From: an uncultured Clostridia bacterium
Lineage (GTDB): Bacteria; Bacillota; Clostridia; TANB77; CAG-508
NCBI GenBank assembly: GCA_947627185.1
Contig: CANQVF010000002.1
Coordinates: forward strand, 62,001 to 126,000
Direction of reading: 5' to 3'
DNA: 64,000 nucleotides
The translations under genes and the position numbers were made by a program. The notes beneath the pieces were generated by a model, which was not told the DNA's origin, did no database searches, and was given only the letters and a program-made list of their open reading frames with translations. Below, piece by piece: positions 44,184-54,055 of this stretch (the stretch's first letter is position 1; the number at the start of each line of letters is the position of its first letter).

Positions 44184-44267
44184 TATTTGGTAAATTTTGC
44201 TGGATATATCAAAATGAATAATTAGAAAATGTTTTACTTAATAAAAAATTATAGAAAAGGAGAATTT

Positions 44268-45633
44268 ATGGCAAAAAAAGCTAGTACAGTATTTGTTTGT
44301 AACAATTGTGGATATGAATCAAGCAAATGGCTTGGAAAATGTCCAGCATGTGGCGAATGGAATTCTTTTGTAGAAGAAAAAGCAATAACTGTTACAGGTT
44401 CTTCTAAAGATAAGGCTAAATCTAAAGCAGAGGTTGTAAAATTAAATGAAGTCATAAAAAAAGACACTTTTAGAATAAAAACTGATGTTGCAGAATTAGA
44501 TAGAGTATTAGGAGGAGGATTCGTTACTGGTTCTCTTACTCTTTTACGGTGGTGAACCAGGAATTGGAAAGTCAACTTTAATACTTCAAATTTGTAATAA
44601 TATAAAAGTAGATGGAAATATTTTATATGTTTCAGGTGAAGAATCGGCAGAACAAATAAAAAGCAGAGCAGATAGACTCGGAATAAAAAAAGATAATTTG
44701 TTGTTTTTAGCTGAAACAGATATAGATAACATTGAACTTGCATTAGAAAAAACAGATGCAAAATTTGTTATTATAGATTCTATTCAAACTATATATTCAG
44801 ATGAAATTACATCAGTGGCAGGAAGTGTAAGTCAGGTAAGAGAAATAACTGCTAGAATTATGAAAATGTGCAAGCAAAAAGAAATTACAACAATTATAAT
44901 TGGACATGTTACCAAAGATGGAAACATAGCAGGTCCAAGAGTTTTAGAGCATATGGTAGATACGGTGTTATATTTAGAAGGAGAAAGATATTTTTCTTAT
45001 AGAATTTTACGTGGTGTAAAAAATAGATTTGGTTCTACAAATGAAATAGGAATGTTTGAAATGCAAAATGAAGGGTTAGTAGAAGTAAAAAATCCTTCTG
45101 AACTTCTTATTTCAGAAAGAGATGGAAATCCATCTGGTTCTGTAATTGTTGTAAGCTTGGAAGGAACAAGACCATTAGTGCTTGAACTTCAAGCATTATC
45201 TACACCAACAATTTTTGGAATGCCTAGAAGAAATGCAAGCGGTATTGATTACAATAGATTAACACTTCTTATGGCAGTTTTAGAGAAAAGGGCTGGAATG
45301 AATTTAGGTTCACAAGATGTTTATATAAATTTAGTTGGTGGAATTAAAATAAATGAACCAGCACTTGATTTAGGAATTGTTTTAGCTTCTGCTTCAAGTT
45401 TTAAAAATATTAGTATAAAAGAAGATGTAGTAGTTATTGGTGAAGTTGGTTTAACAGGAGAAATTAGAAGTGTTAATATGATTGAAAAACGTATTAAAGA
45501 AGCAGAAAAATTAGGATATAAAACTTGTATAATTCCAGAAAGTAATAAAAAACTATTGAAAGAAAATTTTAAATTAGATATAATAGGTGCGAAAAATATT
45601 ATTGATGCTATGAAATATTTAGGATTAAAATAA
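44268..45633 (+). pseudogene. radA: DNA repair protein RadA interrupted by a one-base frameshift at about 44547
   Basis: CNNCGYESSKWLGKCPACGEWN zinc finger in frame 1; GGEPGIGKSTLILQ Walker A onward in the +1 frame; removal of one base (c 44547) restores the reading frame. Confidence 0.9.
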
Positions 45634-46497: not shown

Positions 46498-46586
46498 AGG
46501 ACTTCTTTAAATGAAGTAAAACCTCTAAAGATAAAGTAATGTAATTTAAATTAGAGGTAATGTTCTTCATAAAAGATGTCCTTTTT
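46498..46586 (+). terminator. Long compound stem-loop with U-tract, probable terminator or structured RNA
   Basis: Nested complementary blocks AGGAC/GTCCT, ATGAAG/CTTCAT, ACCTCTAA/TTAGAGGT, followed by TTTTT. Confidence 0.65.
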
Positions 46587-46604: not shown

Positions 46605-48146
46605 ATGAAAGAAAACGGAATTACTTTAATTAAATTTTTTATAATTATTTTAATTATTTTAGTACTTATTACGATTTGTGTAAGTACTATTAGTGATTCC
46701 TATAAAATATATAATTTAAAAAGATATGTATCTGAAATGACTTTAATTCAAGAAAAAATAAATCAAATTAGAAATGATTATAAAGTTTGGGAAAATTATA
46801 ATCCGAATGAAACAGGAAATTTTTATAGTTATCTTCAAAGTTTGAATTTTATAAATGCTAGTAGTGCATCTAATATATATATTGATAAATTTAATAAAAT
46901 TATTGATGATTTAAATAAAAATGATTTAAAATATTGGAACAAAAATGCAGATTCTATAATTACAAATTATTACTATTTTGATCCAGCAAGGATAGAAAAA
47001 AATTTTGGAATAAATGATTCAAATTTATATATAATAATAAATTTTTACACAGGAAATGTTATTTCTAGAGATGGAATAGAAGATGTAAAGAATAAAAAAA
47101 TTATATATAGAGGGTATGATTCTTCAATTGGAAATAAATTAGTAATAAATAATATTTATAATGATGATATTAAAACAGAAATAAAAATAATAGAAAATAG
47201 AGGACTAAAACAAACAGTAAAAATATCCTTGTTATCAGATGATATAAAGACTTTACCTAATATATCTGAAATTTATTATTTTTCAAATAAGAATGAAGAA
47301 ATTAGAAAAAAGTGTAGTATGTTACCAGATTATAGATATATTGAAACTGAAAAATCCGCATATTTTACAATAGAAACATCTGGTGAATATGAATTTATAA
47401 TCGAAGATACAAATTTTATACAATACTCAGCAATTAGAAAAAGTTTCAAATTATGTAATCCACCAATTTTAAATGATGAAATGACAGGAATATATTGGAA
47501 TGGTGATGAAGAAAAAGAAATAGAAGGAATTTACGATAGTAATTGGTATAATTATTCTGAAGATGAATTAAAAATGGCAAATGCTAAAACAACAGATGGG
47601 ATTTATTGGGTTTGGATTCCTAGATTTATTTATAGAGAAACAGAAGAAGGAACTCAATTGGAATTTGTTTATGATAAATCTAGTACACCAACTACAAATT
47701 TATTAAGCAATGTTTATAAGGTTCAAGAAGCTTTTTCAGAAAATGGAGAAATTACAGGATATTGGATAGCAAAATTTCAATCTAATAGTGAAGATAGTGT
47801 AATTATAAAACCAGGATTAACTTTAGCAATTACAGACAAAACAAGAGCTACACAAAATTCTGAAAAATATTTAAATGATAATAAATTATACTCAATCTTA
47901 CCAACTTTAAATAAATTAAATGCTATTATCATATTAGCAAATTCTTATGATATTGAAATTGTAAATGATTTAGTAAGTTATGCTGGTGGTTCTACTAATG
48001 AATTAGGATATATGGATAATGTAAAATATTCTTCTTCAAATAATATATATGGCGTTTATGATGTTATAACTTCTGAAAATGAACTTTTGCAAGAATCAAA
48101 ACCAAACGAGAAGGGAAGATTTAGACCAGTATTAATGCCAAAATAA
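46605..48146 (+). CDS. Prepilin-like surface protein
   Basis: KENGITLIKFFIIILIILVLITI class III signal-like N-terminus; YWVWIPRFIYRE motif in C-terminal half. Confidence 0.65.
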   Translation: MKENGITLIKFFIIILIILVLITICVSTISDSYKIYNLKRYVSEMTLIQEKINQIRNDYKVWENYNPNETGNFYSYLQSLNFINASSASNIYIDKFNKIIDDLNKNDLKYWNKNADSIITNYYYFDPARIEKNFGINDSNLYIIINFYTGNVISRDGIEDVKNKKIIYRGYDSSIGNKLVINNIYNDDIKTEIKIIENRGLKQTVKISLLSDDIKTLPNISEIYYFSNKNEEIRKKCSMLPDYRYIETEKSAYFTIETSGEYEFIIEDTNFIQYSAIRKSFKLCNPPILNDEMTGIYWNGDEEKEIEGIYDSNWYNYSEDELKMANAKTTDGIYWVWIPRFIYRETEEGTQLEFVYDKSSTPTTNLLSNVYKVQEAFSENGEITGYWIAKFQSNSEDSVIIKPGLTLAITDKTRATQNSEKYLNDNKLYSILPTLNKLNAIIILANSYDIEIVNDLVSYAGGSTNELGYMDNVKYSSSNNIYGVYDVITSENELLQESKPNEKGRFRPVLMPK

Positions 48147-48161
48147 AATGGAGATATAAAT

Positions 48162-50309
48162 ATGATAAAAATTCTACAAAGTAAAAAAATTAATTGTATA
48201 TTATTAGCTTTAGCTTTTTCATTTAATTTATTTGTTTTTGCACCATTAGAATTTTATTATTCTAATGTATTTGACCTATGGTTTAATATTGATTACATAT
48301 TACCATTAATAATTATAGCTGGAGTTTTTGTATTTATTAGTGTTTTACTTATAACAATTTTCACGAAAAATCGAGTACATAAAATAATATGTAAAATAGT
48401 ATTTTTATTAACTGTATCTTTATATATCCAAGGAAATTATTTGAATATAGGTTATGAAGTATTAAACGGAAATGATGTTGATTGGAATTCTATGATTTTT
48501 AAGGGAATAATAAATACAGTAATATGGATAGCTATACTAGTAATACCATTTTTTATAAAATTATTTGATGATGAAAAAATATATAGAGTTATATTTAATA
48601 TAATTTGTATGTTAATTATATTAATTCAAATTTTTACATTAATAACTGTAATATGTATAGATTATTTATCAAGTAATGCTCACAATAAAATAATAAATTC
48701 ATCTTTTTATATGGATACAAGCAATATATTTAATTTATCTAAAAATAAAAATATAGTTGTTTTCATTTCAGATACTTTTGAAGGAACTTATATGAATGAA
48801 ATATTAGAAAAATATCCAGAATTTAAAGAAAAATTAAAAGATTTTATTTATTTTGATAATACAACGACGGCATCATTAATGACTTATTCTTCTATGCCAA
48901 CATTACTAACAGGAGAACATTTACAAATTGGTAATAATTTAAAAGAAAATATGAATTATTGTTTCGAAAATACTAATTTTTATGAAACACTAAAACAAAA
49001 TGAATATGATATAGAGTTATATACTTCATTGCCTTTAATACCAACAAATGATAAAGATTTGATAAAAAATAAAATAGAAAAGAAAATGATAATAGATACT
49101 AATTCTAAAATTAAATTAACAAGTTTATTATATAAATGTGTTTTTTATAGATATATGCCACATTTTTTGAAAAGCAAATTTATAGTAGATACATCTGAAT
49201 TTAATAAAATTAATTCTACAAACGTAAATTCATTTTATATAGATACTGTTGATGATGTAGCTTTTAACAAACAATTAATTAATGAAGGAATTGAATCAAA
49301 TTCAAGTAAAAATCAATTCAAATTATATCATCTAAATGGTGTTCATACTCCTTATTATATGACTGAAAATATTGAATATGATAGAAGCAAAGAATATATT
49401 AATTTAAGTACAGATGAAAGAAGATTAAATCAAGCAGTTGGTTCTTTAAATATTTTATTGAATTATGTTGAAAATTTGAAAAAGTCTAATTTGTATGATA
49501 ATACAACAATAATATTTTTAGCAGACCATGGTTGGCAAAACAGATATTGGGTAAATTTTATGATAAAAAAAGCTAATTACAATTCTAATTTCTCTATTAA
49601 TCACGCACCAATTTCTACTGATACAGACTTATTACCAACTATTTTAAATATTGCAACAAATTCTAAAAATTATGGAAAAGATATTTTTGATTATACAGAA
49701 AATGAAAATAGAATAAGAAATGTATATAATTATGTTTTTACACGAGGAGATAATACATATAATGTTTTATCAAGGCTTACAATTACTACAAATGAAGATG
49801 CTTCTAATTATAATTCATTTTATGTTTCAGATTATGAATATATAGATTCAGAAACTAATCCTAAAAAAGAATATGAATTTAATAAAAAAATAAATATTAA
49901 TAATTCTAAAAATGCTAAATATGCAATATTAAATGGATTTTTAATGCAAAATATAAGGTCAGTAGCTAAAGGAACAAATATAGGACAAGAGGCGGATATA
50001 AAAATAAAACCTAAAAAGACAGAAGAAGATGTTACTGCTACATTCTTAATAGATAAAGTGTATTTTGATAATCAAAAAATAATATTTTCACTAGAAGATA
50101 CTGTATTATATGAAATAGAATTAAATGAAAAAGATGAAAATAGAGAAATTACTTTTACTATTCCTAAAGAATTATGGAATAAAAATGATATTTTAAATTT
50201 AAAATTAAAATTTCCTAATGCTAAATTAGGTAATGCAGAAAATTTAGGCGAAGAAACACTGTTTATGTCAATATTGTTAAAAGAGGTCAAATTTAGTAGT
50301 AATAAATAA
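48162..50309 (+). CDS. Sulfatase/alkaline-phosphatase-superfamily membrane phosphotransferase (LtaS/PptA-like)
   Basis: N-terminal TM helices, NIVVFISDTFEGTYMNEIL, TTTASLMTYSSMPTLLTGE, IIFLADHGWQ. Confidence 0.82.
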   Translation: MIKILQSKKINCILLALAFSFNLFVFAPLEFYYSNVFDLWFNIDYILPLIIIAGVFVFISVLLITIFTKNRVHKIICKIVFLLTVSLYIQGNYLNIGYEVLNGNDVDWNSMIFKGIINTVIWIAILVIPFFIKLFDDEKIYRVIFNIICMLIILIQIFTLITVICIDYLSSNAHNKIINSSFYMDTSNIFNLSKNKNIVVFISDTFEGTYMNEILEKYPEFKEKLKDFIYFDNTTTASLMTYSSMPTLLTGEHLQIGNNLKENMNYCFENTNFYETLKQNEYDIELYTSLPLIPTNDKDLIKNKIEKKMIIDTNSKIKLTSLLYKCVFYRYMPHFLKSKFIVDTSEFNKINSTNVNSFYIDTVDDVAFNKQLINEGIESNSSKNQFKLYHLNGVHTPYYMTENIEYDRSKEYINLSTDERRLNQAVGSLNILLNYVENLKKSNLYDNTTIIFLADHGWQNRYWVNFMIKKANYNSNFSINHAPISTDTDLLPTILNIATNSKNYGKDIFDYTENENRIRNVYNYVFTRGDNTYNVLSRLTITTNEDASNYNSFYVSDYEYIDSETNPKKEYEFNKKININNSKNAKYAILNGFLMQNIRSVAKGTNIGQEADIKIKPKKTEEDVTATFLIDKVYFDNQKIIFSLEDTVLYEIELNEKDENREITFTIPKELWNKNDILNLKLKFPNAKLGNAENLGEETLFMSILLKEVKFSSNK

Positions 50310-52196
50310 ATGGAGAATGAAATGAATAATATAATTAGTTTTCTAGCAGTTATAATGGGATTTTGTATGAATGCGGTATATAAAATATGTAAAAATTATG
50401 GAATTTCTCTCATAGTTTTTACTATTGTATCTAAAATTATATTATTTCCATTGAATATGATAATACAAAAAAATTCTATAAAAATGGTTAAAATGAAACC
50501 AGAGATAGAAAAACTAAAATTAAAATATAATAATAAAGAAGAGTTCATGAATGCTCAAATAGAATTGTTCGATAGGGAAAAGTATAATTCTTTTATTGGA
50601 ATTCTTCCATTATTGATTCAAATACCAATAATTTTAGGTTTAATACGTGTTATTAATATGCCAACAGCATACATACAAAATTTGGAAAATTTATATTTTT
50701 TAGGAATGGATTTATCTATAATTCCTAGTATAAATAAATATGTAATAATTCCAATTTTAGCATTAATATCTACAATTATGTTATGCTTATTTCAAAATAA
50801 ACTTAATGTATTACAAAGAGAAGAAACTTTTTTAAGTAAATTATTAACTGGAATTATTACTACTATAATTACTGTTTATTTTGTTTTACTTGTTCCAACA
50901 GGAGTAGGATTATATTGGATATATGGTAATATTTTAGGAATTATTCAATTATATATTTTAAATTGGATAATTCCACCTAAAAAATATATTAATTACAATG
51001 AAATAGAATTACTTAGAAAAAATAAAAAAGAAGAATATAAAAGAAAAAAAATAGAAGATAAAAAGTCAAAAGAATATTATAAAAAGTTTTTTGAAACAGA
51101 AAATATTAATAATATGAAATTAATATTTTATTCAGAACAGAGCGGATTTTATAAATATTTTAAGGGCATGATAGAATATATTTTAAATAATTCTAATATA
51201 ACCATACATTATATTACAAGTGATATAAATGATAAAATATTTGAAATGAAAAATCCAAGGATTGTTCCATATTTTATTGTTACTAATCAATTAATTCCAT
51301 TATTTATGAAAATAGAAGCAGATATAGTTGTTATGACAACACCAGATTTAGGAAATTTTTATTTAAAAAGATCAATTGTAAGAAAAGATGTTGAATATAT
51401 TTTTACAGATCATGGTTTAGGAAGTCAAAATTTATTATATAGACAAAATGCATTAGATTACTATGATACAATATTTGCAAAAAATTATAAACAAGAAGAA
51501 GAAATTAAAAAAATAGAGGAAATTAGAAATGTAAAGAAAAAGAAGATTGTTCAAACAGGATATTCAATGATTGATGATATGATTTTAGAATATGAAAAAG
51601 TAAAAGAATTAAAAAACGATAAAATAACAATACTTATTGCTCCGTCTTGGCAAGAAGATAATATAATGGATAGTTGTATAGATAATATCTTAGATAAATT
51701 ATTAAGTGATGATTATAGAATTATAGTAAGACCACATCCTCAATACATAAAACGAAATAAACAAAAAATTGAAAATTGGATATTAAAATATAAAGATAAA
51801 ATAAATGAAAATTTTATAATAGAACAAGATTTTTCTTCAAATGAAACAATTTATACAGCTGATTTAGTAATAACAGATTGGTCTGGAATAGGATATGAAT
51901 TTTCATTTTCGACAACTAAACCTTGTTTATTTATAAATACTGATATGAAAATTTTAAATCCAGATTATAAAGAAATAGATACTGTTCCAATGGATATAGA
52001 AGTTAGAAATATAGTAGGAAAAAGTATTGAAAAAGATGAAATAAATAATATTAAAAATATTGTTGATGAACTTATAAAAAATCAATCTCTATATATGGAA
52101 AAAAATAAACAAAACAGAGAAAAATATATTTTTAATATAGGAAAAGCAGCTGAAATAGAAGGAAAATATATTATTGATAAAATTAGAAATAAGTAG
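50310..52196 (+). CDS. YidC/Oxa1 insertase domain fused to CDP-glycerol glycerophosphotransferase-like domain
   Basis: N-term: GISLIVFTIVSKIILFPLNMIIQKNSIKMVKMKPEIEKLKLKYNN...IGILPLLIQIPIILGLIRVI; C-term: IFTDHGLGSQN, VQTGYSMIDDM, ILIAPSWQEDNIMD, IIVRPHPQY, VITDWSGIGYEFSF. Confidence 0.88.
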   Translation: MENEMNNIISFLAVIMGFCMNAVYKICKNYGISLIVFTIVSKIILFPLNMIIQKNSIKMVKMKPEIEKLKLKYNNKEEFMNAQIELFDREKYNSFIGILPLLIQIPIILGLIRVINMPTAYIQNLENLYFLGMDLSIIPSINKYVIIPILALISTIMLCLFQNKLNVLQREETFLSKLLTGIITTIITVYFVLLVPTGVGLYWIYGNILGIIQLYILNWIIPPKKYINYNEIELLRKNKKEEYKRKKIEDKKSKEYYKKFFETENINNMKLIFYSEQSGFYKYFKGMIEYILNNSNITIHYITSDINDKIFEMKNPRIVPYFIVTNQLIPLFMKIEADIVVMTTPDLGNFYLKRSIVRKDVEYIFTDHGLGSQNLLYRQNALDYYDTIFAKNYKQEEEIKKIEEIRNVKKKKIVQTGYSMIDDMILEYEKVKELKNDKITILIAPSWQEDNIMDSCIDNILDKLLSDDYRIIVRPHPQYIKRNKQKIENWILKYKDKINENFIIEQDFSSNETIYTADLVITDWSGIGYEFSFSTTKPCLFINTDMKILNPDYKEIDTVPMDIEVRNIVGKSIEKDEINNIKNIVDELIKNQSLYMEKNKQNREKYIFNIGKAAEIEGKYIIDKIRNK

Positions 52197-52232
52197 TATC
52201 ATATAAAGAATTAATAATTGGAGGATAGAATA

Positions 52233-53333
52233 TTGAAAAAATTTTTAATAATAGGATATTTTTTTTTAGTTACAATATTGATTTTAGTTAAAGAAGTATA
52301 TGGATATTTAGATCCATCAGCAATGACATATTTAATACAAATAACAGCTGCATTTTGCATAACAATTGCAACATGTTTTGGAGTGATAGTATATAAGATT
52401 AAACGTTTTTTTAAAAACAAATCAAAAGAATTAGATGATAATAAAGTGAAAAAAATTATTTCAGATTGCTTAAACATAAAAGTAACTGAAATAGAAAAAA
52501 TGGAAAAGATGAAAAAAGGAATGACAAATAATTCTTATTTTTTTGAGTATAAAAATGAGAAATATATTTTTAGAATACCAAAAGAAGGTACAGAAAAATA
52601 CATAAACAGAAAACAAGAAGAGATTGTATATAATGAATTAAAAGGGAAAAATGTATGTGATGAAGTTATATATTTAAATTCTGAAAAAGGATATAAAATT
52701 TCTAAATTTTATGAAAATGCTAGAGAATGTGATTCATTTAAAAAAGATGACATAAGTAAATGTATGCAAAAATTAAGAAAATTTCATGAACTTGAATTAT
52801 CAGTAAATCATGATTTTGATATTTTTGAAAGAATAGAATATTATGAAAGTATATGGAAAAATAAAAAACCAAGATACGATGATTATTATGAAACCAAAAA
52901 TAATGTATTAAGTTTGAAATCTGTTATAGAAAAATATGATAGAAAAAAAGTATTATGCCATATTGATGCTGTATCAGATAATTTTTTAATATTACCAAAT
53001 GATGAAGTAGTATTAGTTGATTGGGAATATGCTGGAATGCAAGATCCACACATTGACATTGCTATGTTTGCATTATATTCTATGTATAGCAAAGAACAAC
53101 TAGATACATTAATAGACCTTTATTTCACTGAAGGATGTTCTGATGAAATAAAATTAAAAATATATTGTTATATGGCGGTATGTGGATTAGTATGGAGTAA
53201 TTGGAGTGAATACAAAAGAAAATTAGGACAAGATTTAGGAGAATATGCAGTAAAACAATATGAATATGCTAAAGAATATTTTGATATTGTTCAAAAAGAA
53301 TTAAATAAGGGAGAAAATAAATGTATACAGTAA
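52233..53333 (+). CDS. Membrane-anchored choline kinase/LicA-like phosphotransferase (TTG start likely)
   Basis: N-term TM and YLDPSAMTYLIQITAA segment, then GMTNNSYFFEYKNEKYIFRIP, VLCHIDAVSDNFLI, VLVDWEYAGMQDPHIDIAMF. Confidence 0.82.
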   Translation: MKKFLIIGYFFLVTILILVKEVYGYLDPSAMTYLIQITAAFCITIATCFGVIVYKIKRFFKNKSKELDDNKVKKIISDCLNIKVTEIEKMEKMKKGMTNNSYFFEYKNEKYIFRIPKEGTEKYINRKQEEIVYNELKGKNVCDEVIYLNSEKGYKISKFYENARECDSFKKDDISKCMQKLRKFHELELSVNHDFDIFERIEYYESIWKNKKPRYDDYYETKNNVLSLKSVIEKYDRKKVLCHIDAVSDNFLILPNDEVVLVDWEYAGMQDPHIDIAMFALYSMYSKEQLDTLIDLYFTEGCSDEIKLKIYCYMAVCGLVWSNWSEYKRKLGQDLGEYAVKQYEYAKEYFDIVQKELNKGENKCIQ

Positions 53334-54034
53334 AAAGAGCAATAATATTAGCAGCAGGGAAAGGAGAAAGACTAAGACCAGTAACTCTTGAAACACCAAA
53401 ACCATTAGTAAAAATAAAGGAAAAACCAATTATAGAAACAATAATAGAAAAGTTAATAGAAAATGAAATTACGGAAATTTATATTACTGTTGGCTATAAA
53501 AAGAAAAAATTTAAGTATTTGGAGAAAAAATATAATAATATAACTTTATTAGAAAATCCTTATTATAGTAGTACAAATAATATTTCTTCATTATATATAG
53601 CTAGAAATTTTATAAAAGATTCTATTATTATAGAAGGTGACTTGATAATTAACAATAAAAATATTTTAAGAAAAAATTTTGAAAAGTCCGGATATAATGC
53701 CATTTTATCAAATAATATTACTAGTGAATGGGGATTAAAAGTAGAAAATAACACTATATTAGATTATGATAAATTAGGTGGAAAGTTTAATTATCAATTA
53801 GTTGGAATTTCAAGATGGAACGAAAAAGATGCTGAGAAACTTAAAGAACATTTAGTAATTGAATTTGAAAAAAATAAAAAATCAGATATATATTGGGATG
53901 AAATTGCTTTAGATTTATTTAAAAAAGAGTATAATTTAGGAATTTTAAAAATAAATTCAAAGGATGTTAAAGAAATAGATACATTAAAAGAATTAGTTGA
54001 AATTGATAAAAGTTATGAAAAATATCTATTATAG
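53321..54034 (+). CDS. LicC-like CTP:phosphocholine cytidylyltransferase / nucleotidyltransferase
   Basis: RAIILAAGKGERLRPVTLETPKPLVKIKEKPIIE, SLYIARNFIKDSIIIEGDLII; overlaps upstream gene by 13 nt. Confidence 0.82.
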   Translation: MYTVKRAIILAAGKGERLRPVTLETPKPLVKIKEKPIIETIIEKLIENEITEIYITVGYKKKKFKYLEKKYNNITLLENPYYSSTNNISSLYIARNFIKDSIIIEGDLIINNKNILRKNFEKSGYNAILSNNITSEWGLKVENNTILDYDKLGGKFNYQLVGISRWNEKDAEKLKEHLVIEFEKNKKSDIYWDEIALDLFKKEYNLGILKINSKDVKEIDTLKELVEIDKSYEKYLL

Positions 54035-54055
54035 TTTTATAATAGATATTTTTTT
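54019..54055 (+). terminator. Intrinsic terminator overlapping the 3' end of the LicC-like gene
   Basis: aaatatctattata-gtt-ttataatagatattttttt; stop codon TAG lies in the hairpin. Confidence 0.85.

Follow-up and report, generated by a model that had tools for sequence, protein, structure and literature searches.

Introduction

Phosphocholine and phosphonate decorations influence how hosts recognize bacteria, and relatives of TagF and LicD work on lipid-linked glycans in the cytosol. The closest described systems are the Lic-1 pathway (LicA-LicB-LicC-LicD) and the Pnt system of phosphonyl tailoring. For the latter, the steps that follow activation have been left open (“enigmatic”) in a study that also mentions LicD-like transferases (PMC6697681). 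Here we describe a locus from a gut-type Clostridia genome, in a 64,000-nt stretch of DNA (“the window”; contig CANQVF010000002.1, positions 62,001 to 126,000), in which a protein that fuses a YidC/Oxa1-like membrane domain to a TagF-like transferase domain is encoded beside an alkaline phosphatase (AlkP)-superfamily enzyme and LicA-like and LicC-like enzymes. We consider it likely that these four genes, a cassette at 48162-54034, form an acquired, LicD-free machine that decorates the cell surface with a CTP-activated phospho-headgroup, which is probably phosphocholine or phosphoethanolamine in this organism, and often aminoethylphosphonate (AEP) in relatives. The machine looks to be undescribed, and no papers on YidC-TagF or YidC-sulfatase fusions were found in the open-access subset of the literature.

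Results and Discussion

The YidC-TagF fusion protein

The central protein of the cassette (50310..52196, + strand, 628 aa) consists of a YidC/Oxa1-like membrane part (approximately residues 1-232) and a TagF-like part of GT-B fold (approximately residues 250-628), the latter at the cytosolic, C-terminal side. The fusion is genuine, because its AlphaFold model (mean predicted local distance difference test score, pLDDT, 92.7) matches both TagF and YidC, and because 78 full-length homologues share the architecture; homologues align end to end at 39-61% identity. In Foldseek searches, TagF (3l7m) is the top match (E 1e-11) and a capsule polymerase with CMP (8a0c) is also found, while the membrane part matches Bacillus halodurans YidC, including its five-helix core, with a template-modelling score of 0.79 by target length. 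The 60KD_IMP profile is found in the window protein (E 1e-30) and in 62 of 62 homologues; Glyphos_transf (PF04464) is found in 55 of the 62, but the window protein alone has no Pfam match to it. The YidC-glycerophosphotransferase fusion proposed in the initial annotation is thus upheld. A profile search of the fusion against the PDB returned YidC chains only, and a single-sequence search with the TagF domain returned only chance glutaredoxin matches; the TagF identity was settled by the fold search. Residues H368, R474, H476, D523 and S525 vary little or not at all. The genome also holds a separate, ordinary YidC and one other PF04464 copy, to which the TagF-like domain aligns (hhalign) over a stretch of only 27 columns, around an ITDWSG motif.

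The AlkP-superfamily enzyme

The gene preceding the fusion (48162..50309, +) encodes a 715-aa protein with N-terminal membrane helices followed by an extracellular catalytic domain, which scores above the cut-off for PF00884, in agreement with its earlier assignment to the sulfatase family. Its AlphaFold model (pLDDT 88) matches sulfatases, PbgA/YejM, MCR-1, EptA and LtaS, and LtaS (2w5q) is the best match in a profile search. Of 64 homologues, 63 have residues D204, T241, H395, D455, H456 and K469, which in A4 do not vary at all, and the catalytic residues are kept in both of the domain arrangements described below. Thr241 is the probable nucleophile and D204, D455 and H456 are predicted metal ligands, so that the membrane domain, the Thr nucleophile and the acidic/His metal ligands of LtaS/EptA-type enzymes all have counterparts here, with residue equivalence assigned by motif. 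We also considered a type I sulfatase, but the Cys/Ser-x-Pro-x-Arg formylglycine motif is absent, and Thr occupies the nucleophile position in 63 of the 64 sequences. Because Thr stands in place of the sulfatase Cys/Ser, we favor phospho-transferase or phosphodiesterase activity over sulfatase activity.

Domain shuffling and the YIDP module

More distant relatives of the fusion (25-29% identity) are YIDP-TagF proteins of approximately 430 aa, which keep the conserved TagF-domain residues listed above, and which are adjoined by a YidC-sulfatase fusion (860-922 aa; Pfam recognizes YidC in 4 of 4 and sulfatase in 3 of 4). Unfused TagF-like loci, meant to serve as a control, proved to represent this second arrangement of the same modules. 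The YIDP module itself (e.g., L052:8695-8961; L-numbers denote individual loci) is a small, two-helix membrane protein with the motif AYIDPSxxTYxIQ, which matches no Pfam family above cut-off and is an undescribed conserved domain. In five loci it is joined to the sulfatase. In the window it is joined to LicA, and the module, here YLDP, makes up approximately residues 1-60 of the LicA-like protein; in most relatives YLDP/YIDP stands alone. Two loci carry the three large domains in one reading frame, as sulfatase-YidC-TagF in L072 (1191 aa) and as YidC-TagF-sulfatase in L122 (1420 aa), with 60KD_IMP, Glyphos_transf and Sulfatase all above gathering cut-offs. An assembly artefact is disfavored, since the two proteins show two domain orders in two lineages. 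By the fusion (Rosetta-stone) argument, the YidC, TagF, AlkP and YIDP modules would act together. The initial annotation had overlooked the YLDP module and the shuffling, and likewise two points described below, the link to phosphonates and the boundary of the cassette.

Genomic neighborhood of the fusion

A scan of GTDB species genomes found at least 426 fusion relatives. The best 80 of these, the window and four loci from the class together gave 83 usable loci, and neighbors were counted as lying within 5 kb of the fusion or further away. The counts (within/further) are 59/0 for YIDP, 54/5 for the sulfatase and 49/0 for LicC-like genes, followed by phosphoenolpyruvate (PEP) mutase (18/0), AEP transaminase (18/1), Ppd (17/1), an NTP-CobD fusion (16/0), an AEP-type permease (6/0) and LicA (5/0). 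Many loci carry the whole AEP set plus a LicC/PntC-like enzyme. Scores of the AEP enzymes lie above curated cut-offs (PEP mutase 416, Ppd 444 and PhnW-AepZ 453 bits), while the transporter proteins are nearest to the PhnS2/PhnT2/PhnU2 AEP models, yet fall below cut-off. For the CobD-like half of the NTP-CobD fusion, the nearest match is a “threonine phosphate decarboxylase-like enzyme” (6oux, E 3e-50), and the headgroup may on this basis be a decarboxylated amino-acid phosphate, e.g., phosphoethanolamine. Many of the loci come from metagenome bins, and the labels Planctomycetia, Chloroflexota and Saccharibacteria among them may be binning errors; if the binning is right, L120 and L124 are fusion loci on Saccharibacteria contigs from 0.7 Mb genomes. 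Fusion relatives also occur in cultured strains, among them Eubacterium uniforme ATCC 35992, which has an AEP locus, and Clostridium aminobutyricum DSM 2634.

In 20 of the 83 loci (e.g., L052, L053, L064-L071 and L139), a gene for signal peptidase I also lies no more than 5 kb from the fusion, and in one locus it lies further away. SpsB processes LtaS, and signal peptidase I possibly processes the AlkP enzyme in the same manner. Directly 3′ of the fusion homologue that is closest among the matches listed, a triple fusion of HAD phosphatase, NTP transferase and Asp/Glu racemase is encoded (L060:11211-13145), perhaps another headgroup cartridge.

Of 388 genomes of the class, 14 have the TagF-like family. 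PEP mutase is found in 10 of these 14 versus 20 of the other 374, and LicA in 7 versus 19, although genomes of one genus dominate and the significance overstates their independence. The initial annotation had proposed that the fused domain uses a CDP-activated group, and the PEP mutase, Ppd, AEP transaminase, PntC and other CTP-activating neighbors across Clostridia support such a use; on this genomic association, the TagF-like domain may take a CDP-alcohol as its substrate. If it were instead an ordinary CDP-glycerol polymerase, as its PF04464 membership and its best fold match to TagF might suggest, the nearness of LicC/PntC-like genes would reflect shared glycopolymer loci. We consider this improbable, given that PEP mutase, AEP transporters and CobD-like fusions mark CMP-X chemistry specifically (where X is the headgroup), that the same fusion is repeatedly accompanied by one or another of several routes to X, and that the co-occurrence with PEP mutase is strong at the genome level.

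Presence and absence in the window's own genome were assessed by family searches of an assembly that is 95.6% complete. The LicD family (PF04991) has no match anywhere in this assembly, which confirms and extends its reported absence from the window and leaves no complete licD locus elsewhere in the genome; PEP mutase was likewise not found. LicD is also absent from 23 of 49 other fusion genomes, and LicD-free fusion genomes in which genes of an AEP set or for AEP uptake adjoin the fusion include L083, L065, L066, L068, L121 and L130.

The LicA-like and LicC-like enzymes and the identity of the headgroup

The LicA-like protein (52233..53333, +) carries the YLDP module followed by a choline/ethanolamine kinase domain (Choline_kinase, PF01633, E 1e-17), has LicA (4r77) as its best PDB match (E 6e-36), and is the sole choline kinase in the genome. 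The last gene (53321..54034, +) encodes a 237-aa, LicC/PntC-like CTP:phospho-headgroup cytidylyltransferase (NTP_transferase in Pfam; LicC 1jyk, E 9e-32). Both had been recognized as Lic-like, and the searches agree; the substrate proposed with them, choline, is backed by one enzyme and questioned by the other. The reference residues for LicA and for Streptococcus pneumoniae LicC correspond to those in the PDB alignments to 4r77 and 1jyk. The kinase keeps T29, D176, N181, D194, E196, V178, Y197, W251, W254 and Y268, of which V178, Y197, W251, W254 and Y268 form the aromatic, quaternary-amine (choline) pocket of LicA (PMC4364537). One change is that of LicA E213 to Tyr, which is shared by the Clostridia relatives that are readable in frame. 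In the LicC-like enzyme the metal ligands are kept, but Glu replaces Asp100 of S. pneumoniae LicC (D105 in the PDB numbering), and Tyr80, Phe83 and Tyr84 are missing. In LicC/PntC pockets the Asp has been tied to phosphocholine and the Glu to AEP (PMC6697681).

We regard a choline-type headgroup as somewhat the better supported for this genome. Ethanolamine or another amine, and so phosphoethanolamine or the like in place of phosphocholine, is a possibility to which we give less weight, although several features point toward it. The LicC-like pocket is identical to that of LicC-like proteins encoded beside AEP transporters, the enzyme groups with PntC-like sequences in a tree (on a long branch), and PntC enzymes favor the primary amine AEP (PMC6697681); the genome has no BCCT choline transporter, and the Tyr at LicA position 213 also fits. 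Against this stand the intact quaternary-amine pocket of LicA and the surroundings of its relatives, which by eye adjoin BCCT-transporter-like and MttB methyltransferase-like genes. In L058 (10370-17784) and L160-L164, we observed HTH-LicC-LicA with a second LicC-like gene, and an MttB-like methyltransferase, a corrinoid protein or a BCCT-like transporter nearby (families assigned by eye).

Boundary and acquisition of the cassette

The four genes are preceded on the same strand by a fifth, prepilin-like gene (46605..48146, +), and the initial annotation treated all five as one operon. The layout is as it had described: the gaps between the ORFs are 15, 0 and 36 nt, the final pair overlaps by 13 nt, and the series is flanked by hairpins, namely a stem-loop with a T-tract at 46498..46586 (+), 3′ of the cyclophilin gene (-28 kcal/mol, z -4.9), and an AT-rich terminator hairpin at 54017..54055 (+), which ends the cassette (z -5.6). 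No shuffled sequence was equally stable for either hairpin. A generic terminator scan, which demands G-C pairs, misses the second, and the first may be either a terminator or the leader of a transcript of the prepilin-like gene and the cassette. An Rfam search of the region found no families.

The unity of the five genes did not survive comparison with the genus. In L146, L147, L150, L154 and L156 the prepilin-like gene lies directly 5′ of ylxM-ffh and the cassette is absent, while in L148, L149 and L152 radA-cyclophilin is directly 5′ of ylxM-ffh, with neither the prepilin-like gene nor the cassette; sulfatase, fusion, LicA and LicC are all absent at the ylxM-ffh site of the relatives compared. 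Homology with these relatives stops at the prepilin stop codon and restarts at ~54047, in the terminator tail, ahead of a promoter-like region of ylxM. Because the shared sequence ends and resumes at these points, 48162-54034 is a four-gene cassette inserted between two resident genes, and the prepilin-like gene, whose presence between cyclophilin and ylxM varies in the genus (48-70% identity), is a resident of the site and is ruled out as a cassette member by the empty-site comparison. The prepilin-like protein matches no Pfam family, including N_methyl (PF07963), which has no match genome-wide at E 0.001.

It was also proposed that the prepilin-like protein is the decorated acceptor. It is encoded adjacent to the cassette, on the same strand and 15 nt away, prepilin-like genes lie 5′ in L062 and L063 (by eye), and phospho-decoration of pilins is known in Neisseria (PMC10434233). 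We nevertheless find this very improbable: relatives without the cassette carry the gene at the same site, and in other taxa neither the cassette nor the fusion was found to be accompanied by a homologue of it.

In a family-wide sample, none of the other 117 genomes has the fusion, but it does occur in more distant members of the class, which points to horizontal acquisition. A viral or plasmid origin was rejected, with no relatives among viral contigs and a single weak match among plasmids. Base composition is a weak marker of the insertion (GC 21-23% for the cassette and 25% for the window, with unremarkable third-position GC). Further upstream, radA (44229-45633) is broken into two reading frames, with a frame change near 44547, and is either a pseudogene or an assembly error.

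A proposed surface-decoration machine

In the machine that we propose, LicA would phosphorylate choline (or ethanolamine) and the LicC-like enzyme would activate the phospho-headgroup with CTP. The cytosolic TagF-like domain would then move the headgroup phosphate from CDP-X (or CMP-X) onto a membrane-bound acceptor, and the external AlkP enzyme, via Thr241, would transfer (or trim) the headgroup on a surface glycopolymer. YidC, TagF, AlkP and YLDP would constitute one machine, whose headgroup-activating genes may be exchangeable, with LicA and LicC here, and AEP synthesis or uptake with PntC, or CobD-like fusions, elsewhere. Since L053 holds glycosyltransferase and GtrA genes and L054 an ABC-2 exporter, surface glycans are suggested as the acceptor. 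We infer the substrate, the acceptor, the direction of transfer, and the carriage of a lipid-linked headgroup across the membrane by YidC.

This last step is our preferred hypothesis for the mechanism, and we hold its full form tentatively. TagF may load the headgroup (phosphocholine, phosphoethanolamine or aminoethylphosphonate) on a lipid, the YidC groove may serve as a scramblase rather than an insertase, and the outer AlkP domain may pass the headgroup to surface polymers, all in one complex with YIDP, with modules that are freely re-fused and headgroup genes that are swapped as cartridges. A path across the membrane is suggested because the TagF and AlkP domains are both fused to YidC: in the known YidC topology, a TagF domain after the last helix is on the cytosolic side, where the donor is made, and the AlkP domain is outside. 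YidC scrambles lipids in vitro, and all simulated Oxa1-family insertases do so in silico (PMC10491306).

An alternative scheme keeps the chemistry but dispenses with the relay: YidC would be no more than an anchor or a private insertase for its partner membrane proteins, TagF would modify a lipid-linked glycan inside the cell, ahead of its export, and AlkP would be a remodelling hydrolase, i.e., an eraser. We give this scheme, too, a tentative standing; it fits most of the data. The cytosolic glycan substrates established for TagF and LicD relatives agree with it, as do the ABC-2 and GtrA genes just mentioned, and protein maturation is hinted at by the signal peptidase genes near the fusion, which 20 of the 83 loci have. 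Position 42 of the fusion, which corresponds by motif only to the groove Arg of insertases, also stays positive (Lys in 77 of 78). However, physical fusions of the AlkP enzyme with YidC and with YidC-TagF occur in several lineages, and these accord better with a joint catalytic path than with a separate eraser.

Several points weigh against the proposed machine. The neighbor models were trained on the same loci, which are phylogenetically related, and the neighbor counts are hence not independent. No recognized activating gene lies within 5 kb in 31 of the 83 loci, some of which are on short contigs, and LicD is present in about half of the fusion genomes. The PntC-like pocket of the LicC-like enzyme and the missing BCCT transporter make choline uncertain, and the lipid relay draws only on the fusions and the scrambling precedent of YidC.

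Comparison with known systems

The cassette resembles the Lic-1 pathway in having LicA-like and LicC-like enzymes that would give a CDP-activated surface headgroup. It differs in that its genome lacks LicD and a BCCT transporter and no licB is seen in the cassette, in that the transferase role would fall to YidC-TagF, and in the added AlkP partner. The findings thus offer LicD-free genomes a possible route to surface decoration. With Pnt tailoring, many fusion loci share PEP mutase, Ppd, AEP transaminase and a LicC/PntC-like enzyme; the window genome, in contrast, has no PEP mutase. In these loci YidC-TagF plus AlkP lies adjacent to the set, as a specific and widespread candidate for the enigmatic step after AEP activation (PMC6697681).

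At the level of single domains, the fusion shares the GT-B fold and conserved His, Asp and Ser residues with the CDP-alcohol polymerases of the TagF/Bcs3 type (PF04464), but is joined to YidC (to YIDP in relatives) and linked to CMP-headgroup genes. It shares fold, five-helix core and the 60KD_IMP profile with YidC/Oxa1 insertases, but carries a transferase domain (a sulfatase in relatives), and an ordinary YidC is encoded separately in the genome; the findings suggest a non-insertase role for a YidC domain. Finally, the AlkP enzyme has the membrane helices, AlkP domain, Thr nucleophile position and metal ligands of LtaS, EptA, MCR and PbgA, and is distinguished from them by an AlkP module that is fused to, or lies beside, YidC, TagF-like and YIDP modules.

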